Shown here: positions 6,607-43,120 of the stretch, in pieces
Layout of the letters: each line of letters starts with the position of its first letter
How positions within the stretch are numbered: the stretch's first letter is position 1
Origin: Marchantia polymorpha subsp. ruderalis
Lineage: Eukaryota; Streptophyta; Marchantiopsida; Marchantiales; Marchantiaceae
Reading direction: 5' to 3'
Assembly (NCBI GenBank): GCA_037833965.1
Contig: AP031352.1
Coordinates: forward strand, 20,812,501 to 20,876,500
DNA: 64,000 nt
Position numbers and translations under genes: made by a program
Notes under the pieces: generated by a model
The model's database searches: none
What the model was told of the DNA's origin: nothing
Seen by the model: the letters and a program-made list of their open reading frames with translations, nothing else

Positions 6607-7045
6607 TGTGGTACCCCACTTTTGGTATTTTTGAGGAAATTAAAACATTTTTGGAAAACTGTACCGCGGCAGCAGTGTAAATAGCCTTAAGTGCACAAAA
6701 ACAGAGTGAAATCGGCAGATCGCAGAGATTCTCGGGAGAACTCGTAGAATCCAAGAGTGGGGTGCAACATCGGGGACGGACACCACCCTCCCTGCGGGCT
6801 CTGAAGGTATAACCCCTTCGGCGCTGCGCCTTCGGCGTTCGAGGAATCCTTCAGAATTGGATCCATTCCCAAGCGCCTCGACTTGGTTAGGATCTTGTTG
6901 GAAAGAGCTTGATGCGATGATTCCAACGAGTCCAAGAACGCCACGAACGGATGAGGACTCCGGGAGTTATGAAGGTCGCAAGATACTCAGCTTTCCGCCT
7001 ACGCACAGGCAAGGAAAGTTTTGTCCTATGCGCGGGCAAAGGCAG

Positions 7046-7065
7046 TTCGCCTACGCGTAGGCGAA
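7046..7065 (+). repeat. Perfect 20-bp palindrome, S1 copy
   Basis: TTCGCCTACGCGTAGGCGAA, identical to 4346-4365. It lies in a U3 head that also holds many GCCTACGCACAGGC-like and CGCCTTCGGCG hairpins in noncoding sequence. Confidence 0.9.
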
Positions 7066-10920: not shown

Positions 10921-10956
10921 TGTAGTGCAGTGTAGTGCTAGTTAGGATTTTGAAGG

Positions 10957-10985
10957 TATAAAGTAGTTCAAGGCGTCTTGCCTTG
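10957..10985 (+). promoter_or_regulatory. LTR core promoter: TATA box plus hairpin, S1
   Basis: TATAAAG at 10957, then 12 bp from the start of the TATA box a hairpin CAAGGC-GTCTT-GCCTTG (10969-10985). Transcription would start about 30 bp from TATA, just past the hairpin, which defines U3/R. Spacing is the same in all LTRs of the window. Confidence 0.7.
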
Positions 10986-11923
10986 GGAACTTTTCCAACA
11001 TCAGAAGTGCAGATCAGGAACTCATTTTCTCTGCGTGTTTGTGTCCTTAGTCCTGTCACCACGCAAGAGGAGCTACACCTTAGCGTTCCGCATTTTGTAG
11101 CTGAAGGCCTTCGGCCGAATGTTCAGAGCTAGTACATTGGTTAGAGACTTGAGTAGTTCAGATCTACACCTGCGGGTGATTGCCGATGCTCAGAGCCAGT
11201 GACTAGTTAGATACTTGAACAGTTTCGCCCCTACACCTTCGAGTGTTTGTTCCTGATTGTACTCCTTCAAAATTTTTCCCCTAAATGCCAAAGTGAAGTT
11301 TTGCTACTTCGTGCAAGCCTTGGTTGTAAATTCAGGTTACGCTGCAGCAGGTGCCTTTGGGGTAACCCCTATAGTATTTCTGGGAATGACAAGTGCCTGA
11401 GAATTCAAACTCTTCAATAGACTGTTATGGTGTGTTACTGGAATGTTTCTCAGTGAGTCCTTCTGTGCGGACCTGTGTTCTCTGCGCGTTTTGTGAGTTG
11501 AGAGTGTTGTTCACCGCGTATGAGTGACTTCGATCCGAAGTAGGCAGTCCAAACCGAGTTTCCTACGCTAGCAGCAAGCTAGTGGAAGTGTTGTAAAAGC
11601 CGGAGTTGGGAGTCACTACCCGCAGCTTCGCTGAGTGTACTCTTGAGAGACCTTCCCCCTAAAATCTTGAGTAGAGGTCCTAACAGATCTCAGGGTTGTG
11701 TTTCTGTAGTTTCAGGTGTGTGTGTTACGCTGCACTGTGCGACCTCCGAGTGCGCTCCAAGTGGACACTTGCAGTATTTCTAGGAGTGACAGTCGCCTGA
11801 GAATTCAAACTCCTCAATAGTCTGTTAAAACGTGACACTTTGTACCCTGTGTGTTCCTCTGTCCCTGTGGGTTCGACCTTTCTACCACTATATTGCAGTT
11901 TTAGCCTTTAGTGGGTTATTACA

Positions 11924-13429
11924 GTGAGTTGGTGGACGAATTCAGTGATACCTTTGCTTGGTCGTATGATGAGTTGAAGGGAGGACCTCGTGAAATGGTG
12001 GAGCATCGGATTTCGCTGGTCCCTGGAGCTAAGCCTATTAGACAGAAGGAGAGAAGGATGAACCCACAGTTACAATTGTTAGTTCGAGCAGAATTGGAGA
12101 GATTACTCAAAGCTGGATTCATTAAGCCTGTAGAGATCACGGATTGGGTTTCTCCTATGGTTTTGGTCAAGAAGAAGAATGGGAAACTTAGAGTGTGTGT
12201 GGATTATAGGAAGCTGAATGCCTGTACTCAGAAGGATCACTTTCCTTTACCTTTTATCACTCTGCTTTTGGAGGAAGTTGGAGGTCATGCGAGGTACACG
12301 TTCATGGATGGATATGCTGGCTACAATCAGATTTCCATAGCTGTGCAGGATGTTCATAAGACAGGCTTCACAACTCCGTGGGGAACTTTTGTATGGGTTG
12401 TTATGCCTTTCGGACTGTGCAATGCACTAGCCACATTCCAAAGGCTAGTGATGTATATTTTCACGGATCTGTTATACAAGTCTATGATAGTTTTTGTGGA
12501 CGATTTTAGCACTCAGTCAAGTGCTGGTGAGCATCTGCAGTGTGTTAGAGAAGCTCTCATTAGATGTTGAAGAATGCAGCTAGCTCTGAATCTTGAGAAG
12601 ACCTTCCTAGGTGTTTAGAGAGGAGTTCTTTTGGGTTATGTTGTGAGTGAGAAGGGAAGAGAACCGGATCGTGATAAGATTGCAGTCATTGAAGGATTGG
12701 CAACTCCCACGAATGCCAAGGGGGTAGCCAAGTTATTGGGACATGTAGGATGGTATAGAGAGTTGATTCCTGACTTTGCCAAGATTGTAGTGCCTATTAC
12801 TCAATTGTTGAGGAAGGAGAATAGATTTGAGTGGACAGATGCTTGTCAAGAAGCTTTTGAAGAGTTGAAGTCCAGGTTGTGTACTTATCCGGTATTGAGG
12901 CCTCCTGACTGGAGCATGCCTTTTCACGTTTTCTGCGATGCATGTAATGTAGCAGTGGGTAGTGCGTTGTGTCAGTCTACAGGGAAGAAGGGGAAGGACC
13001 TGCCAATCGCTTATGCCAGTAGGCAATTGAATCCAGCGGAGAGGAACTTTTCTACTACTGAGAGGGAGTGCTTGGCTATGATTTTTTCAGTCAAGAAGTT
13101 TAGACATTATCTGATCTGTAATCCAGTGGTTTTTTTCGTTGATCATATGGCAATCAAATATCTCGTGAACAAGGCGGAGCTTAGTGGAAGATTGGCCAGG
13201 TGGGTTTTATTGCTAGAGGAATTTGACTACACTGTGGAGTATAAACCTGGTCGCATGCACTTGCAGGCCGACCATCTATCTAGGTTGTCGGAGGATGTAG
13301 GGACTAGTCCATTAGATGATAGATTGATAGATGATAGTCTTTTCGTAGTAATAGCTCAGCTAGAATGGTATGTTGGAGTAGAGTTTTTCACAACTCAGCA
13401 GTTCTCAGGTGATTGAACTAAGGAGGAAA
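11924..13429 (+). pseudogene. Family B RT and RNase H, piece 2 of 3
   Basis: Continues the frame of 4470-6606 after the GTGAG duplication. RT shows the FAWSYDEL leader typical of Tat/Athila elements, the VDYRKLNA, TFMDGYAGYNQ and MPFGLCNA motifs, and FVDDF as catalytic box. RNase H follows (FCDACNVAVGSAL; FVDHMAIKYLV; LQADHLSRL). The frame is broken only by stops TGA 12568, TAG 12616 and TGA 13414; no indel is evident. It is cut at 13429 by LTR B' with target duplication GGAAA, and its codons join in phase with 27581. Confidence 0.92.
13425..13429 (+). repeat. Target site duplication GGAAA of LTR B' (left; right copy 27576-27580)
   Basis: GGAAA precedes TGTGGTAACCCAC at 13430 and follows TTACA at 27575, 14.1 kb away. 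Joining the flanks keeps the family B frame open from RNase H into the integrase zinc-binding region. Confidence 0.9.
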
Positions 13430-14902
13430 TGTGGTAACCCACTTTTTGCTTTTGTGCGGAATTTAAAACAATTTTGGAAAACAGTCCTGCAGTAGCCGTG
13501 TAAATGGTGATCGGTACATTTAAATAGAGTGAAGATGGATAATCGCGGATCTCGCATGATCTCGTAGAATCCTGAAGTTGAGCACAATGTCCGGAACAGG
13601 CGCCTGACCTGAACGATCGATTCTGAAGGAGTTCTCCTTTGGCGCAAGGCGCATAATCCGCCTTCGGCGGTACGCCTTTGGCGCTAAGGGGATCCCTCAG
13701 AGGTTATGCAATTCACAACTCCTCGACTTTCTCAAGATCTTGTTGAAAAGGTTTCGACGCGCTCGTTCTAACGAGCCCAAGAACGCCTGGAACGGATGAG
13801 GACTCAGGGAGTTGTGACTGTCGGAAGATGCGAAGACAAACGCCTACGCATAGGCGGAAGGAGTTCGTCGTCGGCGGGAAGTCCGCCGGGAATTCCGCCT
13901 ACGCATAGGCGGAAGGAATTCACCTACGCGTAGGCACTTCGCCATTGGCGGAATATCCGCCTTCGACTCTAGAAGTTTGCCTTCGGGGATGAAGCTCGTA
14001 CGGCGCCTACGGCGCAAGCGCATCAAGATTAGGTAAGTACCTACGGGGTAGCGAATCCGTACGGTCCGCCTTCGGCCCAACGCCTACGGCGGAACGGACT
14101 GGTTCGCCCTCGGCAGGACGAGACTCCGGAGGCGAGAGCGCATGCGGAGAGACGAGAGAGATTGACATACGGAACGAAATCCGTTGACCGCGATCAACGC
14201 CTTCGGCACAGCCGCCTTCGGCGCTGCGCCTACGCCGACGGACAACGTGATGCACCTACGCCAACAGACATCTTTGACGCTGGCGGTCAGCGCCTACGCA
14301 CAGGCGGATGGAGTTCGGAGCCGGCGGGAAGTCCGCCGGGAAATCCGTCTTCGGCGGAAGGAGAACGCCTTCGGCGGAGCGTGCGGAGGAACGCCTTCGG
14401 CGGTGCGGGATCGATGCGAGTCGGAGTGCGAATGCGAGTAGCGCATCGGCGAGAAAGACGCCTTCGGCGTTGCGCGACCATGGCCGCGGCGAAGTACGCT
14501 GGCGGAGTTCAAATTTACATTTCGAGCGTGCGAGTGCGCGCGACGGCGGAGCGTGAAGCCGTGCGTGCGAGAGGAGGGCCGTTACACCTCCGAGCCGGCG
14601 CATCCATCAAGTGAGTCGACATTCACGACCGAGTGCCGACCATGACATCCTGCGAGCGGAGAACGGACACTCCATTCTTGAATTTGCGATTTCAATTTCT
14701 TGTGCGAGCTGCGCGCGTCCACCTTCTAGCCGAGAGACATTCCAGACACCACCGCGCAGAGACTCACACGGTGACAGAGAGAGAATTGAGTGCGTGAAAG
14801 TCGGAATCGAGAGAGATTAGAGTTTGCAGGAGGATCGAAGTAGTGAGCAAGAAGCTTGAGGGTAGCGGAGGAAGGTTCACGAAATCAAATTTCAAGAACG
14901 CG

Positions 14903-17006
14903 ATGTCGAAGTCCACTCAGCTGCGGATGGTTCCACTCAAGCTTCCGCAGATTGGGTTGCGAGCTTTTCAGGACCGGCTGATTGCAGTAAAACTCGATTT
15001 CCTGCTATGGGGATGGAATTACGTGTGCCCGGACATGGTGCGCGAATGGCAAAGGGAGAGACACCAACCTACGCGCGGATTCCGACCGCACGTAGATCGT
15101 TGGACTGTCCACGATTGGGGACAAGTGCTGGGGAGATGTGCAGGCGAGGACGGGTTACTCCTATTTGATAGTGAGAGCGTCAAGGTGACGAAGGCGGAAG
15201 AAGCCTCCTTTGTGGAATTGTTCAAGAGAGAGAAGTCCACCAAGAACGGGTACAAGACCCGTGACTACAGGGATCGCTTCGGCAGGACCGTAGCGATGGC
15301 ACTTCTGCAACTCTTGCAGCCGCACCGAACAACGTACATCACTTCTTGGCAAGTGTCTTTCGTGGAGCTCACATTGGCCGGAGCTCCGGTTCACTGGTCG
15401 CGTATCTTGCATAGGGTAACGCGGCAGCATGCGTTTGAGGAGAGGGGAGGAACGATCAATCATCTCTTCCCCTTCTTGATAAACTTTTATCGGTCGATGG
15501 GTTGCTTAACCGCGACCGAGCGTATTCAGTATCCGCTGTTGTCACTCGACAATCCCGGGAGGTATGTGCGGAATAACGAGGTCAACTCCAACGCGGAGGA
15601 CATGCCGACCTCCACTCCACCGGCTCAACAGGATGCGGGGAGAGACGCATCCGCAGCGCGAGTGCCGCGGAAGCGGAGATGGAGAGAGGAACCGGAGAAA
15701 GAGCCACATCGAGACTCGACGGCTCTCAAACAGAAGCGCCCACTAGAAGAAATTTGCAGTCGGCCGAAGCAGAAAGCGCGCCGCCTTGTATTGCCTGCGA
15801 GTAGCGCAGAGACGGCGCGGGCCGCCGGAGAGAAGGAGACCCCATCCTCGGAGGAGGACGGGAATGCATGGACAGCAGAGGGGTCAGCGGACCTCCCTAC
15901 GCCGAAGGCACGGTCGCCCTCGGCGGAAGTGAGACGACCTTCGGGTCAAGAGCGACAACACGCGGCACGGATGAGTGTGCCGCCTACGGATAGGCGAATC
16001 CCTGCGGATAGGCGACTCCCTTCAGACAGGAGAACGCCTGCGGATAGGGGAGCGCCTACGCATAGGCGAGACTCGCCTCCGGTGCAGCGCAGGAAAGGAA
16101 AGGAGCCGGCGGAAGATCCGCCTTCGGCTCAAGGGCCTTCGGGGCAAGGTCCTTCGGCGGTGAGACCCCCGGGAAATGCGCCTTTGGCGCAAGGGCCTTC
16201 GGGCCACCAAGTTACAAGTAGGGAGCCGGCGGGAAACGCGCCCTCGGCGGGAAGTCCGCCGGAAGGTGCGCCTTCGGCGGAAGGGCCTTTGGGCCAAGGG
16301 ACATCAGGGGAGCCGCCTTCGGCTCAACCGCCTTTGGCGCTGAGCCTTCGGCGGAAGCGCCGCCGACAATAGCGCCTACGCATAGGCAAGACGCATCCCT
16401 GGCGCAGGACCTAATGAAGGAGCGGGACCTAATGGAGGAGCGGATTGACTGTCGGCAGGAACGAAATACGTGTGTGCGATGCACAATTGCACTCCGCGCA
16501 GACACCTTCCGCACGATCGCCTTCGGCGGTGGACGCCTTCGGCGATGAGGAGTTAGCAGAAGCCAGGCGGGCGGGTGATGTGAATTTGGCACAACCTCAT
16601 TCTCCCACCGCCTTGGACATTCTGGCAGGGAGCAGCAAGGCTGCAGCGGCGACAGTGGTGGCAGACGACGCAAACATTTCGAAGCCACGCTCAAGACAAT
16701 CGCCGGAGAATTCAGTGGCGACCGAAATCCTCAATTCAGAGGATGACGAAGAAGGAGGATCGACGGATTCGGCGTCGAGATCAGAATCGAGTGAGGAGGA
16801 GGAGCAGTCAGTGGCAGGCACGCCGACGGCGGCGCTTTGCGAGCAGGTGGTACCTCTATTGAGGTACCTTGATCGCAAAGTGGAGAAGTACGCGGACTCT
16901 CGCCAGCCTGGGTCCTACGTCGAATTAGTGAAAAGGCGAACCCGCACTAAAGTCCACACTAGCAAGTTGTTGGCCCATGTGGATCGGGAACTTAAGGATA
17001 TGCGGG
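14903..17006 (+). pseudogene. LTR-borne U3 protein in B', first part (rest at 21940-22252)
   Basis: Starts at ATG of MSKSTQLRM. The N-terminal domain (to about 15600) is fully open: WGWNYVCPDMVREW, DRWTVHDWGQVLGRCAG, YKTRDYRDRF, RILHRVTRQHAFEE. The central part carries (P)xDRR repeats encoded by GCCTGCGGATAGGC-type palindromes (15980-16080). One frame ends with TAG at 16370; the frame then shifts and picks up the acidic stretch and coiled-coil start (16445-17006). Insertion of LTR C splits the codons of the MREKHDCLWG region, which rejoin in phase at 21945. Amino-acid conservation with D and C despite many base changes shows this was a selected protein. Confidence 0.85.
17002..17006 (+). repeat. 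Target site duplication GCGGG of LTR C (left; right copy 21940-21944)
   Basis: GCGGG precedes TGTGGTAACACAC at 17007 and follows TTACA at 21939. Removal of LTR C and one copy restores the coiled-coil ORF of B'. Confidence 0.95.
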
Positions 17007-18392
17007 TGTGGTAACACACTTTTTGTTTTTTTTGCAGAATTTAAACAATTTAGAAAAGAAGTACCGAAGCAGTGTCTGTAGTTAGGGAATGGTACGTTAA
17101 AAAGAGTGGATTGAGGAGATCGTCACGAGGTCACGAAGAATCGCGAAGTTGGACGTACCCGCGCCAAATGCCTTCGGCGCCTTCGGCAAGATCTCCTTTA
17201 CTGAGGTGTCTCTACTCACGCGCTTCCAGCGTTTAGGGAAGGTACGCTTCCGGCACAGACACCTCCGGAGGAGATCTCGCTGAAGACGTCAGAAGCCGGC
17301 AAGGACCTCTGAAGGCTTCCGACCATGAGTGTGCCTTCAGCAATGCGCCGCTGGAGCGGGAGGGAAACCTTCATAACGATCAGGATTCACAATAGTTCCA
17401 GTTGCTTGAGGTCGCGTTGGAAAGAGCTCGGGACGCTCGTTCTAACGAGCCCAAGAGCGCCGGAGATGGATCAGGGACAAAGAAGTGATGAGCGTCGGAA
17501 AACTCGCATACGGACATGCCCTGTTCGCGCTAGGGTTCACCGTCGGAGAGGACGCCCGTACGCCTTCGGCGATGCGCCTTCGGCGGAACCACGCGCTCAT
17601 GAGAGGAGATCAACTCAGAGGCGGAAGCGCCTTTGACGGCTGCGCAACGGAAGAGAAGCGCCGGCCGGATGTACGCCTCCGACGTGGCGCGGATAGGCGA
17701 GTGCGCTGGCATGATTCGCGCCGGCGGGATATGCGCCGTCGGCAATATGCGGGGCAGAACGGACAAAACAAGTGGTACGAATACGCGCCGGTGTAATTCG
17801 CGCCGACTTGATGTGCGCCTCTAGCGAGGCGCCGACGGAGAAGGAATACGCCAGCGGCGATACGCCTCCGGCGATGGTCAGGTTAGGAAAAGACAACCTA
17901 GTCGACGCATACGCTCCACTGCGGCGAACTCGAGTCCGGAAGACGATGGCGGCGGAAGAATTCAACATTCACGCATGCGAATGCGCGCAGTGCGGAGTCG
18001 TGAATTCGAGCATGCGAGGGAGAACCGTTAGGCCGTATAGCCGGCTGAGTAATCAAGTTTGATTGGACCCAGTGAGAAACGTTGGGCGATCTTGAATTCG
18101 GAGAAGAAAAGACTGCTCTCCAGTCTCATTCTCTCATTCTTGATTGTGAGTTTTCCAGCTTCCAAGATTAAGCGCAAGGGCGGAGAGACCTGCAGTGAGA
18201 AGAGAGAGTGCGGAGACGAGTTGCGCGAGGATCTTGACGGACCTTGCAGAGAGTTTGCGAGCAGCAAAATTGAGAGCGCAAGAGAAGAGAGAGCGATTTC
18301 AGTCAGTGTCTGAGCGGCCGAAGCGCAGCGGCGATTGTGAGAGATCGAGCGGAAGGGAGAACGTCTGTGTGTGTGCAGGAACAGCAAGAGAG

Positions 18393-20897
18393 ATGTCGAA
18401 GGTCCCCCAGCTGCGAGTGTCCCCACTCAGAGTGCCGCAGATCGGTCTGCGCGCATTCCAAGATGTGTTAACAAGGCTGAAGCTTGATTTCCTCCTGTGG
18501 GGATGGAACTGGACATGTCCGGAGATGGTGCGCGAGTATCTGCAGGAGAAACACAAGCCCTCGCGCGGATTCCGCCCACATCACGAGAGGTGGGACATTA
18601 GTGACTAGGCGCAGGTGTTAGGAAGGTGTGCAGGCGAGGAAGGGTTTCTCCTCTTCGAGGTCGAGAGCGTGAAGGTGTCCAAGGAGGAAGAAATCTCCTA
18701 CAATGATCTTTTCAAAGTTGCCAGGCATCCCAAGAACGGTTTCCGGACACGGGATTACAAAGATCGATTGCGGAGATATGTCGCGACTGCATTGCTTCAG
18801 ATATTGCAGCCGACCAAGACCGCTTACATGCATGGTTGGCAAGTGGGATTTGTGGAGCTAGTGTTGTCAGGAGCTCCGGTTCATTGGGCACGGCTCCTGT
18901 GGAAGGTGACGCGCCAACATGCGCAAGAAGAGAGAGGAGGGACCCTCAATCATCTTTCGCCTTACCTGATCGTGTTTTATCGGGCGATGGGATGTTTGAC
19001 AACTTCAGAGCGGACACGGTTTCCGCTGCTGACCCGGAGTTATCCAGGTAGATACTTGCGGGAGGCCGAAGTGGACACAGATCCGGACGAAGCACCTGCT
19101 AGTCCAGCTCCAGCTCCGGCTCCAGCAAGAGCAGCAGAAGAGCGTCGAAGTGAGCGCGCACCACGGAAGCGGAAATGGGATGAGAGACCTGAAGACAGGC
19201 AGCCGGAAGCTCCCTCTGCGCCGACTCGGAGTCGGCCAACCAACGAGCCTCACAGCCGGCCAAAACAGAGGGCACTCAAAGTGGTGTTGCCAACTAGTAC
19301 TGAGGAGACCAGGCGTACTCCAATCCGGCGGAGTATCCTGCCCACGCAGGAAGAGATAATCGCGCAGATTCTGGGGAGGTCGGCGAACGCCTCTGCGCAG
19401 AAGGCACCGATGCCTCCAGAAGAAGACAGGCGAACTGACAGTCGGCCGACTGCGAGTTGGGCGACTGAAGGACGGCCAACTCAACAGCGCGTTGAACCGG
19501 ATAGCAGGCCAGAAGCAGAAGGGAGTTTGGCTGACGAGCCAACAACCCTCAGAGGGTCTTCTTCGGCAGAAGGCGCTTGTGGGGAAACGCCGCCAGCAAG
19601 CAGGCCAAGTGGAGTGAAGACGCGCAGGGTGGATCCGACTGCCAGTCGGACAACTGCTAGTCGGCCGACTCCGAGTCGATCAACTGAGAGTCGGCTAGAT
19701 TCGCCGACTGCGAGACGGACAGGGCCGGCGACCATTGTGAGGGCGCCTTCGGCGGACACACCTCCGGCGAAGACACCTTCCGCGCCGATCGCGCCGGAAG
19801 AGCAGGCCGTAGAAGCGGGCGGTGCAAGGGTGACAAAAGTAACTGCGGCGCCGACCCCTTCGAGAACCGAAGATCGAGCCGGAACAGGGGCTCAGGCAGT
19901 GGGATCCCCCACTGCCTTGGATATTTTAGCAGGGAGTGGAGCGGCAGTCGCGGCGGAAGCTGCCGCGCGCCACAGTTCCAGGGAGTCGCCAAGAGATTCT
20001 GTGGCGACCGAAATCCTTGAAACAGAGGATGAGACGAGTTCGGAAGAGCAGGAAGCGGACTCTGTGCAGAAGACGCCAACAGGAGTATTGTGCGAGCAGA
20101 TAGTGCCACTCCTACGATATTTGGATCGCAAGACATCAAAGTACTCGAGTTCCAGAAAACCGCAGTCTTATGTGGAGATTGTCAAGCGCACGACGAGGAG
20201 CAAGGTGGCCACTTGGGCCTCTAGGTGCCAAACATTGCAGGATAGGTATACTGCCCTCCGACAGCACCTGGCGATCACGCAGAGGCTACACCAAACCCTT
20301 CAACAACAGCGAGAGGATGTGGCGACGAAAGCCCAGGCGGATGCTGAGCTAATGCGGGCAAAGATCGAGTCGGAATTACAGGGAGAGCGGAGACAAAACC
20401 GCATCTTAACAGAGGAGCTTGCGCGCCAGACGCGCGCATTAGAAGAAAGTCAAAGTACACGCAAGGAGGATGAGGAGTTGTTGCGCAACTTGCAATCCGA
20501 GTGCGCAGATTTGAGGGTGCAGCGCGTAGATGCGGAGATGTAGCTAGCAGAGGTGGAAGGCAGCAGCCAGACGCGAGAAGAGTTGGTGACACGGGTGATT
20601 CACTGTCTAAAAGGATACGCCCATTGGGAGGTGGCAGCTCAAGAGAAGATCACACTCAGGGAGTTTGAGCTTCGGGCGGCGGCATTGACGGAGGTTGACA
20701 GTCGAAGTCGGCGGCGAGTAGCGAGGAAATTAGAAGCCTTCTTGTCGGGTGCGCGCGACACTATGGCGCACTTAGAGTCAGAAGTGACTGCCGTCCTTCG
20801 GCGACTGGGGTTGCGCAACCGGTCGGAAGATTGGCAGGGTAGAGATAGGGTGCGAGGCAGTCCGGCGCGCAGGAGGCGCAACACCGGATCTGCATAG
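18393..20897 (+). pseudogene. LTR-borne U3 protein, diverged copy in LTR C (two in-frame stops)
   Basis: A single frame of 834 codons from the conserved ATG (MSKVPQLRV) to the stop at 20895, interrupted only by TAG at codon 72 (18606; Trp in all relatives, CTGG to CTAG) and TAG at codon 717 (20541). The N-terminal domain of about 225 residues keeps LDFLLWGWN, MVREYL, FRPHHERW, VLGRCAGEEG, YKDRLRR, LLQILQP, VHWARLL and GGTLNHLSPYLIVFYR. The centre is Pro/Ser/Arg-rich with a different palindromic repeat from the other subfamilies. An SPRDSVATEIL motif and an acidic stretch follow, and the C-terminus is coiled coil. Frame preservation at this divergence argues for past selection on the protein. 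Function unknown. Confidence 0.85.
19433..19730 (+). repeat. AGTCGGCCGACT palindromic minisatellite in the C ORF
   Basis: The perfect 12-bp palindrome AGTCGGCCGACT occurs at 19440-19451 and 19669-19680, with several one- or two-base variants about 15 bp apart. It encodes S-R-P-T repeats. It lies in the low-complexity region that in other subfamilies is filled with unrelated GCCTACGCACAGGC-type palindromes. Confidence 0.75.
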
Positions 20898-20977
20898 TGC
20901 AGTAGTGTAGTTTGGTTTCGTGCAGGAATTTAGAGAAGCAGATAAGGTAGCGTAGTGTTAGTTAGGACCTTAGAGGG

Positions 20978-21006
20978 TATAAAGTAGTTCAAGGCGTTTT
21001 GCCTTG
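20978..21006 (+). promoter_or_regulatory. LTR core promoter: TATA box plus hairpin, LTR C
   Basis: TATAAAG at 20978; hairpin CAAGGC-GTTTT-GCCTTG at 20990-21006, again 12 bp from the TATA start. The surrounding sequence is diverged but the stem is intact. Confidence 0.7.
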
Positions 21007-21644
21007 GGACTCTTCCAGTTTCGGAAGTGCAGATCAGGGACTCACTTTCTCGGCGTGTTTGTGCATTTGGTCCTGGCACCACGTAGAGAAGCTGCAGCAT
21101 AGTGAAGTTACCGCATGTTGTAGCTGAAGGCCTTCGGCTGAATGTTCAGAGCTAGTACACCGGTTAGAGACTTGAGTAGTGCGGATCTGCACCTGCGGGT
21201 GATTTCTGATGCTAAGAGCCGGTTGCGAGTTAGAGACTTGAACAGTTCCCCCTTACTCCTTCGAGTGACATATCCTGATTGTACTCCTACGGGAAGTTTC
21301 CCCTGAATGCCAAAGTGAAGTTTTGTTACTTCGTGTAAACCTTGGTTTGCAATTCAGGTTGTGTGTGTGTGTTACTGGATTGTGTCTCAGTTAAGTTCTC
21401 AGTCGGGCCTGTACTCTCTGCGCTTGGTGTGAGTCGAGGGTGACGTCCACTGCGTATGAGGGACTTCGTTCCGAAGTGGGAAGTCCAGTCCGGGTTCCCT
21501 ACGCTAGTTCCTGGCGGAAGGGCTGTAAAAGCCGGAGTGGGAGTCACTACCTACAGAGCCTTTGAGTGAACTTTTGAGATACTTTCCCCCTGAAATCCTA
21601 AGCGGAGGTCTTGACCGACCTCTGAGTTGTGCTTTTTCAGTTTC

Positions 21645-21646
<2 letters not shown>

Positions 21647-21679
<33 letters not shown>

Positions 21680-21786
21680 GAGTGACCTACGCTGCACTGT
21701 GCATCCTCCGAGCATCCCCCGAGTCGAGCATCCTCCGAGTGACCTCCGAGTCGAGCATACTCCGAGTGGCCTCCGAGTCGAGCACT
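21647..21786 (+). repeat. (GT)16 microsatellite and CCTCCGAGTCGAG minisatellite in LTR C
   Basis: GT run at 21647-21678, followed from about 21705 by about five units built from CCTCCGAGTCGAGCAT with deletions. Longest version of the U5 block seen in the window. Confidence 0.85.
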
Positions 21787-21939
21787 GCAGTATTTCTGGG
21801 AGTGACAGTCACCTGAGAATTCAAACTCTACAAAAGTCTGTTAAACGTGACACTTTTTACTCTTTGTGTTGCCTCTATCCCTGTGGGTTCGATCTTTTTA
21901 CCACCATACTGCAGTTTTAGCCTTTGGTGGGTTATTACA

Positions 21940-22252
21940 GCGGGAGAAGCATGATTGCCTGTGGGGCCACCTCAATCTCACTAAGAAGGTGTACAAAGCT
22001 CTCGACAAGACGAAGGACGAGAAGCTGGAAGATTTCCCCAAGAAGAAGGCGAAGCTCGCAGAGGAGCTGGATTCTAAGCAGGCTCAGAATCGAATTTTGT
22101 CAGAGGAGCTCGTGCGACAGACACGGTTGTTAGAGCAGTGTTAGCTTGCACGGCAAGCGGACGAAGAATTAATCCGCAGACTGCAATCCGAGTGTGGAGA
22201 ATTGAGAGCGCAGTGTGCGGAGGCCGAATTGCAGTTGGTTGTAGTTGAAGAC
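21940..22252 (+). mobile_element. LTR B' continuation (coiled-coil coding part)
   Basis: After the GCGGG duplication the B' ORF resumes in phase: KHDCLWG, then an RILSEELVRQTRLLEQ heptad region, one TAG at 22141, and LQSECGELRAQ. It ends at 22252 in a VVVED motif, where LTR D begins. The remaining ~1.4 kb of B' (end of ORF, TATA, R/U5) is not found separately, which suggests that the tail of LTR D replaced it by recombination. Confidence 0.85.
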
Positions 22253-22702
22253 TGTGATACCCCACTTTTGGTATTTTTGAGGAAATTAAAACATTTTTGG
22301 AAAACTGTACCGCGGCAGCAGTGTAAATAGCCTTCGGTGCATCAAAACACAGTGAATTCGGAAGATCGCAGAGATTCTCACGGGAACTCGTAGAATCTAA
22401 AAGTAGGGTGCAACGTCAGGGACGGACACCACCCTCCCTGCGAGCTCTGAAGGTATGATCCCTTTGGCGCAAGGCGCAAAATCCGCCTTCGGCGCTAGAG
22501 GAATCGTTCAGAATTGGGTCAATTTCCAAACGCCTCGACTTGGTTAGGTTCTTGTTGGAAAGAGCTCGACGCGCTGATTCCAACAAGCCCAAGAACGCCA
22601 CAAACGGATGAGGACTCCGGGAGTTATGAAGGTCGCAAGATACTCAGCGTTCCGCCTGCGCACAGGCGAAGAAAGTTTTGTCCTATGCGCGGACGAAAGC
22701 AG

Positions 22703-22722
22703 TTCGCCTACGCGTAGGCGAA
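22703..22722 (+). repeat. Perfect 20-bp palindrome, LTR D copy
   Basis: TTCGCCTACGCGTAGGCGAA, flanked by TTGTCCTATGCGCGGACGAA on the left and ATAGGGTT on the right. The same flanks surround the altered palindrome of the array LTRs (50808-50827, minus strand), so the two are homologous. Confidence 0.9.
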
Positions 22723-23742
22723 ATAGGGTTTTGACGTAGGCGCGAATGTCGCCTACGCACAGGCAAGAAAACCTCTGCCCAGGCGGACGAGCGAAGGCCG
22801 CCTGCGCACAGGCGCTTCGGCGTCGGCGGGGAATCCGCCTTCGGCCCTAGAAATGCGCCTTCGGGAGTAGAAATTGTACGGCGCCTTCCGCGCCAGCGCA
22901 ACAACGCGGACGGGCGAGGAACCGCCGGAGTAGTAAAATCCGTATGGACCGTACGGACTGTACGGACGGGACGGATGGATGCGCTCTTGGTCGGACGGAG
23001 TTGCGGCGGCGAGAGCGCCGACGGAGAGACAAGAAACGGACAGTCTGGACGGAGTCTGTTGACCGCGGTCAACGCCTTCCGCGCCAGCGCAGCAGCGCGG
23101 ACGGAATTTGCCTACGCGCAGGCGAGCGCCTACGCACAGGCGGGTGAAGTTCCGCCCCGGCGGAGATTCCGCCTACGCACATGCGGGAGTTTAACTTTTG
23201 TCCGATGCGCGGACGATCGCCTTAGGCGGAATCCCCGGCGGAGATTCCGCCGGGGATTGGCCGAGGAGCGGTACGAACGAGTGTACCGCGCAAGGCGGAA
23301 AAGACGCCTTCGGCGCTGCGCACCCATGTCCGCGGCGTAGTACGCTCGCGGAGTTCAAATTTGCCAATTCGAGCGTGTGAGTTAAATCGGCGTCGGCGGA
23401 GCGTGAAGCCGCGCGTGAGAGCGGAGACCGTTTTAGCGTAGAGCCGGCGCGGCCATCAAGTGATTCGACCCTCACGATCAAGAGCCGACCATGACCTTCG
23501 ACCGGAAGACGGAAAGCGCCCCATTCTTGAATTCGCGATTCCATTTTCTAGTGCGAGCTGCGCGCGTCCATCTGCTAGCTGCTAAGCATTCCAGACATCG
23601 CCGCGCAGAGGATTACTTGTTGATTGAGAGAGAATTGAGTGCGCGCGATTTGGAATTGAGTGAGATTAGAGTTTGCAGAGGGAGCAAGGGGCTCGAGCGG
23701 AGCAGAGAGAGAATTAGCGAGCAAGCGAATTCCAAGAACGCA

Positions 23743-26565
23743 ATGTCGAAGCTGAACCGATTGCGGATGCTGCCGCTCCGGCTTCCACAGAACGGGTTGC
23801 GCGCCTACGAGGAACGGCTGATTGCAAGAAAGCTCGATTTCTTGCTATGGGGGTGGAACTACATTTGTGTGGATATGGTGCGCGAGTGGCTGGAGCCACA
23901 GCGACCACCTTCGCGCGGATTACGTCCGCATGTCGATCGGTGGACCGTCCAAGATTGGGCGCAGGCATTGGAAAGGTGTGCCGGCATCGAAGGGCACCTC
24001 CTCTTTGATAGTGAGAGCGTCAAGGTGTCGAAGCAGGACGAGGCGCAATTTGTGGAGTTGTTCAAGCGGGAGAGGTCTACCAAGAATGGGTACAAGACCC
24101 GCGACTACAAAGATCGCTTCTGCCGAACTTTGGCGACGGCGCTGCTGCAATTACTGCAGCCACACCGCGCCTGCTACATCACCTTGTGGCAGGTTTCTTT
24201 CGTGGAGCTCATCATCGAGGGAGCTCCAATTCACTGGGCGAGCATCTTGCACAGAGTGATGCGGCAGCACGCGTTTGAGGAGAAGGGGGGAACTCTCAAT
24301 CACCTCTCCCCTTTCTTGATCAATTTTTATCGACAGCAAAATTGTTTGACCGCGGCGGAGCTTGCTCGCTTTCCGCCATTGTCCGTCGACCATCCCGGGA
24401 AGTATGTGCGGGATAACGAGGTCGACACCGATGCAGAGGAATCACCAGCTTCTACTCCACCAAGGCGGAGGGACAAGGGAAGAAACACACCCGCAGCAAG
24501 AGTGCCGCGGAAGCGTCGATGGAGAGAGGAGTCTTAGGAGGAGCAGCATCGAGAACCCACTGCTCCCATTCGACAGCGGCCATTGCACGAAGTGTGCAGC
24601 CGGCCGAAGCAGAAGGCGCGCAGGCTTGTGTTACCAGCCAGCAGCGCGGACACGGCGACGATCGCCACGGAGAAAGGAAGTGCGTCGCCGGAGAGGAACG
24701 AGGGAGCGCGGACGTCTGCAGGAGCAACGGACCACGTTGCACCTCCGACGGACGAGAGGCGGCCTTCGGGCCAAGGGCCTCCGGAGTTACCACGTGCGAT
24801 GCGGACGAGCGTTCCGCCTGCGCACAGGCCAGCTTCAGCGGACAGGCAACCCCAAGCGGACGTGGACCTCCGCCTACGCGTAGGCAGAGAAAGTTCGCCT
24901 GCGCACAGGCTGCCTGCGCACAGGCAGGATTCACCCCCGGTCCAACATAGGAAGGGGAAGGAGCTGGCGGAAGATCCGCCTTCGGGTCAAGGGCCTTCGG
25001 GACCAGACCCTCCGGCGTACAACGCGCCGCGATTTGCGCCTTCGGCGCCAGGGCCTTCGGGTCAACGAGATGTGAGTAGTGAGCGTGCGAAGACCGCACC
25101 TTCGGCGGGTAATCCGCCGGTAGATGCGCCTTTGGCGGTAGGGTCTTCGGGGCCAGGGACATCGGGCGAGCGGCCTCCGGCTATGTCGCCTTCGGCGATA
25201 GACGCCTTTGGCGATGCGCCTGCGGCAGACAAGGCGCCGGTAATTGCGCCTGCGCACAGGCCAGACACAGCCCTTGCGCAGGACCGATCGAAGGAGCAGG
25301 ACCTAACAGAGGAGCGGACTGTCTATCCGCGGGACAAAATTTGGGTGCGCAATGCGCAATTACACCCCGCGCAGACACACTCCGCTCGATCGCCTTCGGC
25401 AGCGGACGTCGGAGGCGAAGAGGATACAGTCGAGGATCGACAGGCGGATGATGGGGATGTAGCACGGCCACATTCACCCACCGCCTTAGACATTTTGGCG
25501 GGGAGCAGCGAAGCTGCAGGAGTGCCTTCGGAGGCAGCACCTGTAGACGACGTGCAGCCCCACTCGGGGCAGTCGCCAACGCAATCAATGGCGACTGAAA
25601 TCCTTCCCTCGGATGATGACGACGGGGGCTCCACAGAAGCAACGTCGGGGTCAGGAGATACCGAGGAGGAGGAGGAGGAAATTGTTGGAGCTCCGGCGGC
25701 GGCGCTCTTTGAGCAGGTAATACCGTTGCTGAAGTACTTGGATCGCAAATTTGATAAATACGCCGATCCACTCCAGCCGGGATCCTACATCAAATTAGTG
25801 CGCAGGCGGACTCACACTAAAGTCCACACCAGCAAGCTACTAGCTAGGGTGGACCGGGAGCTGAAGGATTTGCGGGAGAAGCATGCCTGTTTGTGGGGAC
25901 AGTACAACCTTGTGCGGAAATCGCACGCCCTCGACAAGATGAAGAAGGAGAGAATGGAAGAGCTCACCAGGGATGTGGTGAAGACCACGACAGATTTGAT
26001 TTCTGAGAAAACTCAGAATCAGATTCTGTTAGAGGAGCTCGTGCGACAAACGCGGTTATTGGCGGAGTGTCAGCTCGCACGACAGGCGGATGAGGATTTA
26101 ATCCGCAGGCTACAGTCAGAGTGCGGGGAATTGAGAGCGCAGCGTGCGGAGGCCGAATCGCAGTTGGTGGTAATTGAAGATGATCGCAGGCGAGAGGCAG
26201 ATCGCACGAAGGAGGAGATGGCGAGGCGTGTCGCCCACTGTGTCAAGGGCTACGCCCACTGGGAAGTGGCGGCGCAGGAGAAACTCACACTGCGTGAGTT
26301 AGAGCTTCGTGCAGCCGGGTTGTTGACAGGTGACAGTAGGAGTCGGCGGAAGGTGGCGAAGAAGTTAGACTCTTTTCTGTCGAAGGCGCGGGATACCATG
26401 TCCACCCTCGAGGTGGAGGTGTCCGCGGCGTTGCAGCGTTTGGGACTGCGTAGTCGAGCAGAAGATTGGCAGGGTAGGGAGTTAGTGCGCGGCAGTCCGT
26501 CGCGCAGGAGGCGAAGCACAGGTTCTGCGGAGTGTAGTGTAGCGTGGTTTCGTGCAGGCGTGTAG
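23743..26565 (+). pseudogene. LTR-borne U3 protein, best plus-strand copy (one stop)
   Basis: 940 codons from ATG (MSKLNRLRM), broken only by TAG at codon 265 (24535; GAG or GAC in relatives). The start is chosen because this ATG is shared by all LTRs; the frame is also open upstream to 23491. Residues 1-235: conserved domain with LDFLLWGWNYICVDMVREW, DRWTVQDWAQAL, FVELFKRE, YKTRDYKDRF, LLQLLQPHRACYITLWQVSFVE and INFYR. Then basic motifs RVPRKRRWREE and RPKQKARRLV (possible nuclear signals), a Pro/Ser/Ala-rich centre with palindrome-coded repeats, SPTQSMATEIL, an acidic run (about 623-650), and coiled coil from about 660. The N-terminal layout recalls the plant transposon/mobile-domain proteins of Tat/Athila accessory ORFs; this is inference and no function is assigned. 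Confidence 0.85.
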
Positions 26566-26601
26566 CGTAGTGCAGTGTAGTGCTAGTTAGGATTTAGAAG
26601 G

Positions 26602-26630
26602 TATAAAGTAGTTCAAGGCGTTTTGCCTTG
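26602..26630 (+). promoter_or_regulatory. LTR core promoter: TATA box plus hairpin, LTR D
   Basis: TATAAAG at 26602 and hairpin CAAGGC-GTTTT-GCCTTG at 26614-26630, directly before the expected start of R (GGGATC). Confidence 0.7.
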
Positions 26631-27575
26631 GGATCTTTCCCAACATCAGAAGTGCAGATCAAGAACTCATTTTCTCTGCGTGTTTGTGTCCTTAGTTCTG
26701 TCACCACGCACGAGGAGCTACACCTTAGCGATCCGCATTGTGTAGCTGAAGGCCTTCGGCCGAATGTTCAGAGCTAGTACATTGGTTAGAGACTTGAGTA
26801 GTTCGGATCTATACCTGCGGGTGATTGCCGATGCTCAGAGCCAGTGACTAGTTAGATACTTGAATAGTTTCGCCCCTACACCTTCGAGTGTTTGTTCCGG
26901 ATTGTACTCCTTCGGGATTTTTCCCCTGAATGCCAAAGTGAAGTTTTGCTACTTCGTGTAAGCCTTGGTTGTAAATTCAGGTTACGCTGCAGCAGGTGCC
27001 TTGGGGTAACCCCTGTAGTATTTCTGGGAATGACAAGTGCCTGAGAATTCAAACTCTTCAATAGACTGTTATGGTGTGTTACTAGAATGTTCCTCACTGA
27101 GTCCTTCAGTGCGGACCTGTGTTCTCTGCGCGTTTTGTGAGTTGAGAGTGTTGTTCACCGCGTATGAGTGACTTCGATCCGAAGTAGGCAGTCCAGACCG
27201 GGTTTCCTACGCTAGCATCAAGCTAGTGGAAGTGTTGTAAAAGCCGGAGTTGGGAGTCACTACCCGCAGCTTCGCTGAGTGTACTCTTGAGAGACCTTCC
27301 CCCTGATTTCTTGAGTAGAGGTCCTAACGGATCTCTGGGTTGTGTCTCTGTAGTTTCAGGTGTGTGTGTGTGTGTGTCACACTGCACTGTGCGACCTCCG
27401 AGTGCGCTCCGAGTGAACACTTGCAGTATTTCTGGGAGTTACAGTCGCCTGAGAATTCAAACTCTTCAATAGTCTGTTAAATGTGACACTTTGTACCCTG
27501 TGTGTTGCCTCTGTCCCTGTGGGTTCGACCTTTCTACCACTATATTGCAGTTTTAGCCTTTGGTGGGTTATTACA

Positions 27576-32025: not shown

Positions 32026-32028
32026 CTA
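32020..32028 (-). promoter_or_regulatory. Leaky stop TAG CAA TTA, unit 2
   Basis: Minus-strand TAG CAA TTA between gag-protease and pol, in the same frame. Same sequence as units 3 and 4. Confidence 0.75.
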
Positions 32029-35950: not shown

Positions 35951-38852
35951 CTACACGCCTGCACGGAACCACGCTACACTACACTCCGCGGAACCTGTAC
36001 TGCGTCTCCTGCGCGGCCGACTGCCGCGCACTAACTCCCTACCCTGCCAATCTTCCGCTCGACTGCGCAGTCCCAGACGCTGCAACGCCGCGGTCACTTC
36101 CACTTCGAGGGCGGACATGGTATCCTGTGCCTTCGACAGAAAGGCCTCGAGCTTCTTCGCTACCTTCCGCCGACTCCTACTGTCGCCTGACAACAACCCG
36201 GCTGCGCGCAATTCAAACTCACGCAGTGTGAGTTTCTCCTGCGCCTTTACTTCCCAGTGGGCGTAGCCCTTGAGACAGTGGGCGACTCGCCTCGCCGTCT
36301 CCACCTTCGTGCGATCCGCCTCCTTCCTGCGATCCTCTTCAATCGTTACTAATTGCGATTCGGCTTCAGCACGTTGCGCTCTCAATTCGCCACACTCTGA
36401 CTGCAAACTGCGGATTAATTCTTCATCCGCCTGCCGTGCGAGCTGACATTGTTCCAACAACCGCGTCTGTCGCACGAGCTCCTCTGACAAAATCCGATTC
36501 TGGGCCTGCTCAGAATCGAGTGCTTCCTTGACCTTCACCTGCTCCTTGGTGAGCTCGCCCAGTTTCTCATCCTTCATCTTCTCGGAGTGCTTGTAGAATT
36601 TCTGATTAAGCTTGTACTGTCCCCATAAGCACTCATGCTTCTCCTTCAAGTCCCTCAACTCCTGGTCCACTCTAGCTAATAGCTTGCTGGTGTGGACTTT
36701 AGTGCGAGTCCGCCTGCGCACTAATTCGATGTAAGATCCCGGCTGGAGTGGGTCGGCGTATTTATCGACCTTGCGATCCAAGTACCGCAGCAACGGAATC
36801 ACTTGCTCAGAGAGCGCCGCCGCCGGCGCTCCAACAATTTCCTCCTCCTCCTCCTCGGTGTCTTCTGCTCCTGACATTTCTTCCGTGGAGCCTCCGTCGT
36901 CATCATCCGAGTGGAGAATTTCAGTCGCCATTGATTGCGTCGGCGACTGCCCCGAGTGGGGCTGCACGTCCTCGACGTGTGCTGCCTGCGAAGGCACGGC
37001 TGCAGCCTCGCTGCTTGTCGCCAAAATTTCTAAGGCGGAAGGCGAATGTATCCGAGCGGCATCCCCTTCGCTCGCTGGTTGATTGCCTACCGCATTCTCT
37101 CTGTCGCCGTCGTCCGTCGCCGAAGGCGATTGAGCGGAGGGTGGCTGCGCGGGGTTGGATTGCGCGTCGCGCATCGAGATTTCATCCCGCGGACAGTCAC
37201 TCCGCTCCGTCGTCTGCTGCTCCCTCGATCGGTCCGTGGGGGCTGTGCCCGGCCCGTGCGCAGGCGCATTTGCCGGCGCCTTGTCCGTCGCAGGCGTAGC
37301 GCCGCGGACCTCTATCGCCGAAGGCGACATGGCCGGGGGCCGCACGCCCGATGTTCCTTGGCCTATAGGCCCTACCGCCGAAGGCGCATCTATCGGCGGA
37401 CTTCCCGCCGATGGTGCGGCCTCCGCACGCTCTCTGCTCGTATCTCCTCGGCTCGAAGGCCCTGGCGCCGAAGGCGCGAATTGCGGCGCGTGGTGCGCCG
37501 GTGGGTCTGGCCCCGAGGGTCGGTGTCTCGTAGGCGGTTCTTCCGCCGGCTCCTTCCCCTTCCTACGTTGGAACGGGGGTGATTCTTGCCTGTGCACAGG
37601 CGGCACGTGCGGAGGTGTTCTGTGCACAGGTGACCTGTGCACAGGCGACCTGTGCACAGGTGAGCGCCTGTGCACAGGCGGACTGCTCCTTCCCACGCGT
37701 AAGCGTAGATCCACGTCCACTTGCGTTCGCCGGTCCGCGGAGGCTCGTCCGTCCGCGGAGGTTCGCCTGTGCGCAAACGGAACCTCTGTCCGCATCGCAC
37801 GTGGTAACTCCGGAGGCCCTTGGCCCGTAGGCGGCCTCTCTCCCGACGAGGTTGCAGCGTGGCCCGTCGCTCCTGCGGCCGTCCGCGCTTCCTCTCGCCT
37901 CTCTGGCGACGCACTTCCTATCTCCGTCGCAATCGTCGCCGTGTCTGCACTGTCAGCTGGTAACACCAGTCTGCGTGCCTTCTGCTTCGGCCGGCTGTAT
38001 GGCTCGCACAGCGGCCGCGGTCGAATGGGAGCAGAGGGTTCTTGATGCTGCTCCTCTTCAGACTCTTCTCTCCATCGCCGCTTCCGCGGCACTCGCGCCG
38101 CAGGGGTGTGTCTCCCTTCGTCTCTCCGTCTTGATGGGGTAGAAGTCGGGGACTCCTCTGCGTCAGTATCGACCTCGTTCTCCCGCACATACTTCCCGGG
38201 ATGGTCGATGGACAATGGCGGAAAATGTTCAAGCTCCGCCGCTGTCAAACAATTCCGCTGTCGATAAAAATTGATGAGGAAAGGAGAAAGATGGTTTAGA
38301 GTTCCCCCCCTTCTCCTCAAACGCGTGCTGTCGCATCACCCTGTGCAGGATGCTCGCCCAGTGAATGGGAGTTCCCTCGATGACGCACTCCACAAAAGAG
38401 ACCTGCCACAATGTGATGTAGCAGGCACGGTGCGGCTGCAGTAATTGCATCAGCGCCGCGGACAAAGTCCGGCGAAATCGATCCTTGTAATCACGGGTCC
38501 TGTACCCATTCTTGGTTGACCTCCCGGTCTTGAACAGCTCCACAAATTGCGCCTCTTCTTGCTTGGTCACCTTGATGCTCTCGCTGTCGAAAAGGAGATG
38601 CCCTGGCATGCCAGCACATCTTCCCAACGCCTGCGCCCAATCTTGGACTGTCCACCGATCAACATGCGGACGCAATCCGCGCGAGGGTGGTCCCTGTGGC
38701 TCTAGCCACTCGCGCACCATATTCGCGCAGATGTAATTCCATCCCCATAGCAGGAAATCGAGCTTTCTTGCTATTAAGCGCTCTTCGAAAGCGCGCAGCC
38801 CGTTCTGCGGCAGGCGAAGTGGCACCATCCGCAATCTGCTCGGTCTCGTCAT
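35951..38852 (-). CDS. LTR-borne U3 protein, L3 (one +1 frameshift)
   Basis: Starts at ATG 38852 (MTRPSRLRM), the same start as in other LTRs; the frame is also open upstream to 39479. The conserved N-terminal domain runs in the first frame to a run of seven G (plus 38304-38310), where S1 and D have six. From there the relatives' protein continues in the +1 frame to 35951 (acidic and coiled-coil parts), while the first frame stops at 38229. About 967 codons in all. Either a fixed 1-base insertion or a recoding site; the former is simpler. Confidence 0.8.
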
Positions 38853-40239
38853 TGCGTTCCTGGGGTTCGCTCGCCCGCTCATTCTACTTCCGCACTGTCC
38901 GCGTTTCTTTCTCTCTCGGCAAACTCTAATCGCTCTCAATTCCAAATCACGCGCACTCACTCCTTCCTCAATCAACAAGAAATCTCCTGTGTGGCGGCGT
39001 CGAGAATGGTCCGCAGCCAGCAGATGGATGCGCGCAGCGCGCACAAGAGATTGGAATCGCGAATTCAAGAATGGGACGTTCTCCGCCGCCCGGTCGATTA
39101 AACTCTCACGCTCGAATTGGCGGATTTGAACTCCGCGAGCGTGTCGCCCTGCGGACATGGGGGCGTAGCGCCGAAGGCGAGTTTTCCGCCTTGCGCGGTA
39201 CACTTGTTCGTACCGCCCCTCGGCCAATCTCCTTCTGCCTTGACGCGTGTGTCCGCATGTCGGACAAAAATTCAACTCCTGCCTGTGCGTAGGCAGGGGC
39301 CTCGGCGGATTCTCCGCCGGCGCGGAACTTGAACATCCTCCTGTGCACAGGCGCTCGCCTGTGCGCAGGCGAATTCCGTCCGCGGCGCTGCGCTGGCGCG
39401 GAAGGCGTTGACCGTGGTCAGCCGTCTCCGTCCAGTCTGTCCGTTCCTTGTCTCTCCGTCGGCGCTTCCGCCGCCGCAACTCCGTCCGTCCAAGAGCGCA
39501 TCCACCCGTGCCGTCCGCACGGTCCGTACCTGTTGGATTACTCTGGCGGCTCTTCCGACGTACGCGGCGCTGCGCTGGCGCGGAAGGCGCCGTACACTTT
39601 CTACCTCACAAGGCGCATTTCTAGGGCCCAATGCGGATTTTCCGCCGACGCCGAAGTGCCTGTGCACAGGCGTTCGCCTGTGCGTAGGCGCACTTCGCGC
39701 CTTCCCTAACCCTACTTCGCCTGTGCACAGGCGAACGCCTTCGTCCGCGCATAGGACAAAACTTGAATCCCCCTTCTGCGTAGGCGGAATTCGCGCCGGT
39801 GGCGAACTCCTTCCGCCGTAGGCGACCGCCTCCGTTTCTTCCAGTAGCGATAACTCCCTAAGTCCTCGTCCGTTCCAAGCGTTCTTGGGCTCGTTGGAAT
39901 CAGCGCGTCGAGCTCTTTCCAACGGGATCCTAACTTGGTCAAGGCGCCTGAGGGTTGACCTAATTACGGGGGTTTCCCTACAGCCGCGGACGCAACCTCC
40001 GAAGGCGGGTTTTGCGCCTTGCGCCGTAGAGATCCTAACTGCGGAGCTCGCAGGGAGGGTGGTGCCTGTCCTTACTGCGGCACCCCAAATCCCAGATTCT
40101 ACAAGATCCCTCGAGAATCCCCGCGATCTTCCGGATTCACTCTGTTTTGATGTACCGAAGGCTATTTACAATGCTGCCAGGGTACAGTTTTCCAAAAATG
40201 TTTTGATCTCCTCAAAATTGCCAAAAGTGGGGTACCACA

Positions 40240-40252
40240 TGCCCCCCTCCTC
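40240..40252 (-). promoter_or_regulatory. Polypurine tract, unit 3
   Basis: Minus-strand GAGGAGGGGGGCA directly before the LTR start TGTGGTACC and 24 bp after the pol stop. Confidence 0.88.
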
Positions 40253-40276
40253 AATTGTGAGCGCCCACGCGAACAC

Positions 40277-43117: not shown

Positions 43118-43120
43118 CTA
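43112..43120 (-). promoter_or_regulatory. Leaky stop TAG CAA TTA, unit 3
   Basis: Same motif as at 54204-54212; gag and pol are in one frame and only this stop separates them. Confidence 0.78.

Follow-up and report, generated by a model that had tools for sequence, protein, structure and literature searches.

The 64,000-nt stretch of Marchantia polymorpha subsp. ruderalis DNA analysed here (the window; contig AP031352.1, positions 20812501-20876500) carries retrotransposons whose long terminal repeats (LTRs) contain a protein-coding gene. Elsewhere in the genome, an open stretch of an auxin response factor gene agrees in 70 of 70 residues with PDB chain 6sdg_A, Marchantia polymorpha ARF2. Our analysis makes it likely that these Ty3-type elements of about 16.6 kb have a unique 3′ region (U3) that has expanded to about 4.4 kb to accommodate a whole accessory gene, one that would serve the element's own cycle. 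The open reading frame (ORF), hereafter the LTR-ORF, comprises 976-1051 codons from the first ATG, more than the 830-970 codons given by a first-pass annotation of the same DNA, and the entire frame lies in U3, in the sense orientation of gag-pol. The presence in three LTR families of a strongly selected U3 gene provides a reason for the giant LTRs, namely cargo.

LTR borders and element structure

The genome (241 Mb, nine contigs) was searched with the 3′ end of one window LTR, and the best 40 of 3687 candidates were scored. The 40 full or nearly full matches comprised 3 in the window and 37 loci outside it, which were fetched; 7 partial matches were left out. Thirty-one of the 37 loci contain one LTR with both ends, and the 6 loci with no single LTR of this kind were set aside. 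The 31 genome LTRs were sorted into 12 solo LTRs, 11 5′ LTRs followed by a primer-binding site (PBS), 7 3′ LTRs preceded by a polypurine tract (PPT), and 1 LTR with internal sequence on both sides.

The family A repeats, 5.3-5.4 kb in length, have TG...CA ends (TGTGGTACCCCAC...GGGTTATTACA), with a purine tract before them and a tRNA-Asp primer site after them. All the hallmarks of LTR retrotransposons were found: paired direct LTRs, TG..CA termini, PBS, PPT and target-site duplications (TSDs). Perfect 5-bp TSDs flanked all 12 solo LTRs among the fetched loci, one of which (L020) has been shortened to 4,717 bp. A complete element (L015/L009) spans 16,588 bp between CCTGT duplications, with 5,797 nt between its LTRs, which differ at 9 of 5,388 sites. 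The LTRs L022 and L037, 22.0 kb apart, have the common TSD TGCAC; only the ends of this locus were read.

Self-comparison of the window revealed LTRs on both strands, along with three 11,092-bp units that are nearly identical; in these units, internal regions separate the LTRs L3-L5, with the PBS just after one LTR and the purine tract directly before the next. By themselves, these units leave the unit borders undecided, and they could be read as a tandem array of whole units with a short true LTR and with the ORF as a gene of the internal region. The TSDs, located exactly at the claimed borders in 12/12 solo LTRs, refute a short true LTR with an internal ORF; the same borders are followed by the PBS in the 11 5′ LTRs and preceded by the PPT in the 7 3′ LTRs, and the outer TSDs of L015/L009 match. 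We therefore give this arrangement virtually no credence. As the first-pass annotation had proposed, the repeats of about 5.3 kb are true LTRs with an ORF upstream of the TATA box, as the solo TSDs, the PBS, the PPT and the conserved TATA demonstrate. A single ORF in the internal region between shorter LTRs was not seen: the one element measured end to end, of 16.6 kb, has the ORF in both LTRs, with no room for it between them.

The internal region was read in the window array. Between the 5′ LTR L4 (46036-51331, minus strand) and the 3′ LTR L3 (34944-40239, minus strand; located by self-comparison and end inspection), it occupies 40240-46035 (minus strand, 5796 nt) and consists of a leader, gag-pro, pol and a final 37 nt, that is, genes and short spacers only, with no copy of the LTR-ORF. 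L4 is identical to L3, and its LTR-ORF is frameshifted, with open pieces at 49321-50697 and 47043-49427. Just past the stop of this frame lies the TATAAAA of L4 (LTR nt 4326; 47000-47006, minus strand), the presumed core promoter. The PPT GAGGAGGGGGGCA (51332-51344, minus strand) stands directly before L4, and the PBS TGGCGCCGCTGCCGGGGA in the leader (45996-46013, minus strand) is the complement of the host tRNA-Asp(GTC) 3′ end plus CCA. The matching tRNA 3′ end occurs at 31 genome places, and 3/3 sampled places were tRNA-Asp(GTC) genes.

The gag-protease ORF of 943 aa (43118-45949, minus strand; domains scanned on the copy at 54210-57041) showed Retrotrans_gag, a zinc knuckle and weak protease models, and the reverse transcriptase-RNase H-integrase frame (40277-43117, minus strand; domains scanned on the copy at 51369-54014) followed with RVT_1, RT_RNaseH and rve, which is the Ty3/Gypsy order. 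The two parts share a reading frame that is interrupted by one TAG, whose context (TAG CAA TTA) is of the CARYYA type known as a leaky stop in plant RNA viruses, according to the text available from PMC3542737. This TAG is located at 43118-43120 on the minus strand, at 32026-32028 and 54210-54212, and at about 1012-1014 on the plus strand; the context is kept in an older, diverged copy.

Position of the gene and selection on it

Frames and TATA boxes were counted over 37 LTRs, the 31 genome LTRs and 6 full-length window LTRs, with an open frame defined as at least 1000 codons from stop to stop. The frame is open in 23 of the 31 genome LTRs and in none of the 6 window LTRs tested; among the former, it is open in 8 of the 12 solo LTRs versus 15 of the 19 other full-length LTRs. 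TATAAAA occurs once in 33 of the 37 LTRs (the exceptions are L042, S1, C and D), usually about 40 nt past the ORF stop. Present in 21/21 aligned open copies, it is the only TATA-like site common to at least 12 of them, and we assigned it from the sequence as the putative core promoter. The whole ORF lies between the LTR start and this promoter, in sense and downstream of the other genes. The first-pass description of a U3 gene that follows pol as sag does in mouse mammary tumour virus (MMTV) is therefore accurate as anatomy. As a separate observation, the repeat and unique 5′ portion of the LTR (R-U5; family A LTR nt 4560-5392) was its least variable part in the 21 open copies, at 0.3-1.3% per block versus about 1-6% upstream.

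Selection was assessed on open copies: 22 distinct copies for pairwise comparison, 21 aligned copies for the by-part, phase and TATA analyses, and 19 for shared N-terminal changes. The ratio of nonsynonymous to synonymous substitution rates (dN/dS) was 0.228 over 231 pairs and differed by part, with 0.362 before a conserved Met, 0.022 in the N-terminal domain, 0.38 in the middle and 0.211 in the C-terminal part. Between the conserved Met and the stop, variable sites were distributed over the three codon positions as 73/76/197, and in the N-terminal domain as 8/3/55, patterns reached by 0 of 2000 shuffles in both cases. Such three-periodicity was absent in U3 nt 1-1200 (918 of 2000 shuffles) and in R-U5 after the stop (1440 of 2000). 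In the N-terminal domain, all 31 shared changes were synonymous and none was nonsynonymous (3.29 nonsynonymous opportunities per synonymous one), and distinct indels had a multiple-of-3 length in 3/3 cases in the ORF versus 4/15 outside it. These substitution patterns indicate that the gene is under purifying selection, which is very strong in the N-terminal domain.

A chance opening in GC-rich DNA would fit the composition of U3, which is GC-rich, and the presence in some copies of a further frame of 211-297 codons around LTR nt 74-965, where no periodicity was seen. The phase test refutes a chance origin of the LTR-ORF, and the dN/dS values, the conservation across families and the upstream U3 without periodicity also count against it; the probability of this explanation is negligible.

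The LTRs B and C of the window represent separate families, with dozens of genome matches each (the best 40 were scored of 3192 and 2010, respectively). Identity in the N-terminal part was 159/230 residues between families A and B, 125/219 between A and C, and 142/219 between B and C. Cross-family dN/dS in this part was 0.11-0.27, a rough estimate, since dS exceeded 1.3 and was saturated. The C-family solo LTR L053, flanked by the TSD CGTAT, shows the same order of ORF (with one in-frame stop), TATA about 45 nt further on, and LTR end. Since the gene is found in three diverged LTR families, the U3-gene layout probably predates their split.

The conserved Met (position 85 in the L021 protein) opens the part common to families A, B and C. 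In family B, an in-frame stop lies 102 nt before this Met, and the first codon of the frame is at 14798; in family C, similarity upstream of the conserved Met was looked for and none was seen. Both observations suggest that the protein may have about 960 rather than 1045 residues.

Expression, function and relationship to known systems

In LTR biology, strand transfer during reverse transcription writes U3 into both LTRs. The RNA of these elements would start past the TATA of the 5′ LTR and would carry a single copy of the gene, in the 3′ U3, as its final cistron. Reverse transcription would then copy the gene into both LTRs, so that each new insertion would begin with two identical copies. 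The protein could be translated from a spliced or subgenomic RNA, or transcription of its gene could begin at a TATA-less promoter within the first 1.2 kb of U3; a donor-like AGGTGTG is present in R-U5 (LTR nt 5175) in 21/21 copies. Selection on the gene would act via the copies that transpose. Recombination between LTRs would yield solo LTRs that keep the gene, with tandem arrays as the reciprocal product; a process that normally means loss of the element's genes would thus leave the U3 gene behind. The first-pass statement that every solo LTR retains the gene holds for the copies themselves, of which 8/12 are open, and requires qualification as to their activity, as the only conserved TATA lies after the gene and no promoter is evident before it.

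The gene might act mainly from dispersed solo LTRs, or might have been captured by the host, with selection on the resident copies. The resident copies are many, and the frame is open in two-thirds of the solo LTRs. However, the copies are young, with 9 differences of 5388 sites between the LTRs of the complete element and 1-6 of 5359 within a second tandem array on contig C9, and open frames are therefore expected without selection. Changes confined to single copies numbered 38 nonsynonymous to 34 synonymous in solo LTRs and 59 to 80 in the others, so that stronger constraint in the solo copies is unsupported. Upstream of the ORF no promoter is visible. We consider this explanation very unlikely, and prefer an accessory gene that serves the element's own cycle.

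Several points weigh against this preferred reading. The sample was drawn from the top-scoring matches to the end of a single window LTR, which over-represents young copies, and the choice of open copies favours the multiple-of-3 indel result. Constraint is weak in the middle of the protein and before the conserved Met (0.38 and 0.362). The ORF is also looser than pol at similar dS: the N-terminal comparison of family A with LTR D gave 0.126 versus 0.037-0.078 for pol pieces (older element), and longer ORF pieces gave 0.19-0.43 against D and S1, values of this ORF/pol comparison that are inflated by broken copies. Neither a TATA-like site nor an acceptor of the sought type recurs before the ORF in as many as 12 of the 21 aligned copies. 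The protein has no known domain, and a C-terminal coiled coil was unsupported by heptad power (125-349 of 1000 shuffles reached the heptad value).

One open protein gave no match in Pfam at E 10 or less, which includes the plant mobile domain (PF10536) in one intact protein, and only chance-level matches in NCBIfam. The N-terminal profile had no relative in PDB (best E 0.98), and none of 61 pattern matches to the N-terminal domain in viral contigs was confirmed. The protein shows several basic clusters, a proline-rich middle and no transmembrane segment (highest 19-residue hydropathy 1.14). The basic clusters and the lack of a transmembrane segment would suit a nuclear role, and the selection seen in young copies would suit a function in the life cycle of the element itself; our guess is a nuclear accessory protein acting in transcription, nuclear entry or targeting. 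As an impression only, its layout resembles that of Transposase_28, Transposase_32 and plant mobile domain proteins.

The first-pass annotation had compared these elements with the Tat/Athila group, and membership in it was not borne out by the scanned ORFs, in which a chromodomain, an Athila ORF-1 and a second RNase H were all absent. A second, archaeal-type RNase H is the Tat criterion (PMC6317226), and we found one RNase H region, with overlapping RT_RNaseH models. Athila ORF-1 (PF03078) was absent from the scanned window ORFs and from the LTR-ORF, although it is present in only 16% of Athila elements, as stated in the available part of the same source. The 881-aa pol ORF without a chromodomain and the tRNA-Asp rather than tRNA-Met primer place the element among the non-chromoviruses, for which a tRNA-Asp primer is generally suitable (PMC6317226).

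The frame may nevertheless descend from Tat, Athila or Retand accessory genes and have come to lie in the LTR when the LTR border shifted. Like the angiosperm extra ORFs, it is large and follows pol in the genomic RNA (PMC7264820, PMC11963269). Against such descent, it is sense, whereas the Retand frames are antisense, it encodes no env-like transmembrane segment, and it has no Pfam match at the threshold given above. A genome search with PF20167 (Transposase_32) returned no candidate, but its controls were equally silent, and one with PF04195 (Transposase_28) returned three weak matches, all under the cut-off. On balance, we regard this origin as possible but doubtful.

Comparison with described plant elements shows partial likeness in each case, within the portions of the sources that were available. 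The Retand elements of the Tat group (Grande, RIRE2, Retand) likewise carry an additional gene downstream of pol, before the 3′ end, possibly for a nuclear DNA-binding protein (PMC7264820, PMC11963269); their TRP28 ORFs are antisense and sit in the interval from pol to the 3′ LTR, and the LTRs measure 315-1,194 bp (PMC11963269), whereas the present ORF is sense, lies inside a 5.4-kb LTR and has no PF04195 match over the cut-off. The Ogre/Athila elements are plant non-chromoviruses with LTRs of up to about 5 kb, extra ORFs and tRNA-Asp among their primers (PMC6317226). In contrast, extra ORFs are described as internal (PMC7264820) and are sorted as belonging to the 5′ or 3′ part, with none mentioned in an LTR in the sections available from PMC6317226. 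Retrosat2, RIRE3 and RIRE8 combine LTRs of about 3 kb with an ORF0 (PMC3485330), but this ORF0 lies upstream of gag-pol and is not stated in that text to be in the LTR. Extra ORFs of plant elements are thus described as internal in the consulted parts of these papers (PMC7264820, PMC11963269). Within the accessible portions of the open-licence literature on LTR ORFs and Marchantia retrotransposons, we found no plant precedent for a gene inside an LTR, and precedent elsewhere is possible.

Coding sequence reaching into U3 is familiar from retroviruses, where lentiviral nef and foamy virus bel do so only partly. The closest likeness is to MMTV, in which an accessory gene in U3 is sense and last in the genomic RNA and the coding of Sag makes the LTR unusually long, at about 1.3 kb (PMC3026287, PMC9412291, in the parts available). 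MMTV is a mammalian retrovirus with env, and a second U3 promoter also drives sag (PMC9412291), whereas the present element is a plant retrotransposon with no internal env ORF, a gene that has some 1,000 codons and no database match, and no TATA found upstream of it. The finding is thus an MMTV parallel in a plant. We put forward only tentatively, and as rather improbable, that an MMTV-type layout arose independently at a far larger scale and that solo LTRs spread free-standing gene copies, maybe feeding protein in trans to full elements. For annotation, the result is a warning, since solo LTRs of this kind could pass for a gene family.

Tandem arrays and neighbouring sequences

The tandem array of LTR-internal units occupies 27669-64000 of the window (minus strand) and runs on to contig position 20885985; in all, it covers 45.8 kb of the contig (20840169-20885985) between CACCT target duplications. 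Within it, L3 and L4 are equal over 5,296 nt, L5 (57128-62423, minus strand) shows 2 differences from L4, and L5 differs from L045 at 14 of 5,266 positions. The second array (C9:14390250-14419228; L014, L011 and L010) has the order LTR-internal-LTR-internal-LTR and lies between ATGAG repeats. With one TSD pair around each array, each probably began as a single insertion. The arrays may have arisen by recent unequal exchange or by insertion of a concatemer, and an assembly error is another possibility.

Upstream of the array, the window contains a nested group of LTRs on the plus strand. The solo LTR S1 (family A; 6607-11923) has the TSD GTGAG on both sides and a broken LTR-ORF, whose longest piece is 8053-9324. 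The 5′ part of LTR B (13430-17006, continuing at 21940-22252) belongs to the second LTR family, is inserted in a different Ty3-type element and contains an ORF piece at 14903-16372. Solo LTR C of the third family (17007-21939; ORF piece 18609-20543) has the TSD GCGGG on both sides. S1 and C had been offered as the proof that the ORF is inside the LTR; their TSDs stand, while C is from another family (see the A-C identity above) and the frames are broken.

The borders of S1 and C are thus set by TSDs and those of L3-L5 by the PBS and PPT, whereas LTR D (family A; 22253-27575, plus strand; ends TGTGATACCC...GGGTTATTACA), part of the same proposed border check, has no TSD of its own. Its LTR-ORF is cut by one in-frame stop into 23491-24537 and 24538-26565. 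The flanks of D differ, with GAAGAC before and GGAAAG after it, and GGAAA is found directly before LTR B (13430) and again after D (27575). This suggests that D, inserted in B, probably recombined with B, such that the 3′ end of D replaced that of B.

LTR B was considered as the 3′ LTR of the preceding pol frame (11905-13416), and this was ruled out; that frame stops past its RNase H part and comes from a different Ty3-type element. Remnants of this second element (4378-6606 and 11905-13429) are split by S1 and truncated by LTR B, and its reverse transcriptase-RNase H is about 49% identical. An Rfam scan of the window gave no match at the gathering score.

The LTRs also contain short sense repeats. 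CGCCTTCGGC occurs in 46 copies in the window (shuffle mean 0.28), 46/46 of them in LTRs, for example at 37119-37476 and 39170-39731. In the 37 LTRs, it was found 170 times in sense and 0 times in antisense, with 40 copies before the ORF and 130 in the ORF middle, and CCTGTGCACAGG is likewise repeated in the LTR U3 and ORF middle. In the 23 open ORFs, the two repeats are each read in one frame, as PSA (86) and PVHR (67), respectively. The repeat is not confined to LTRs, with 7 hits in 16,381 bases flanking the 12 solo LTRs. A 201-nt stretch of U3 folds better than 196 of 200 shuffles.

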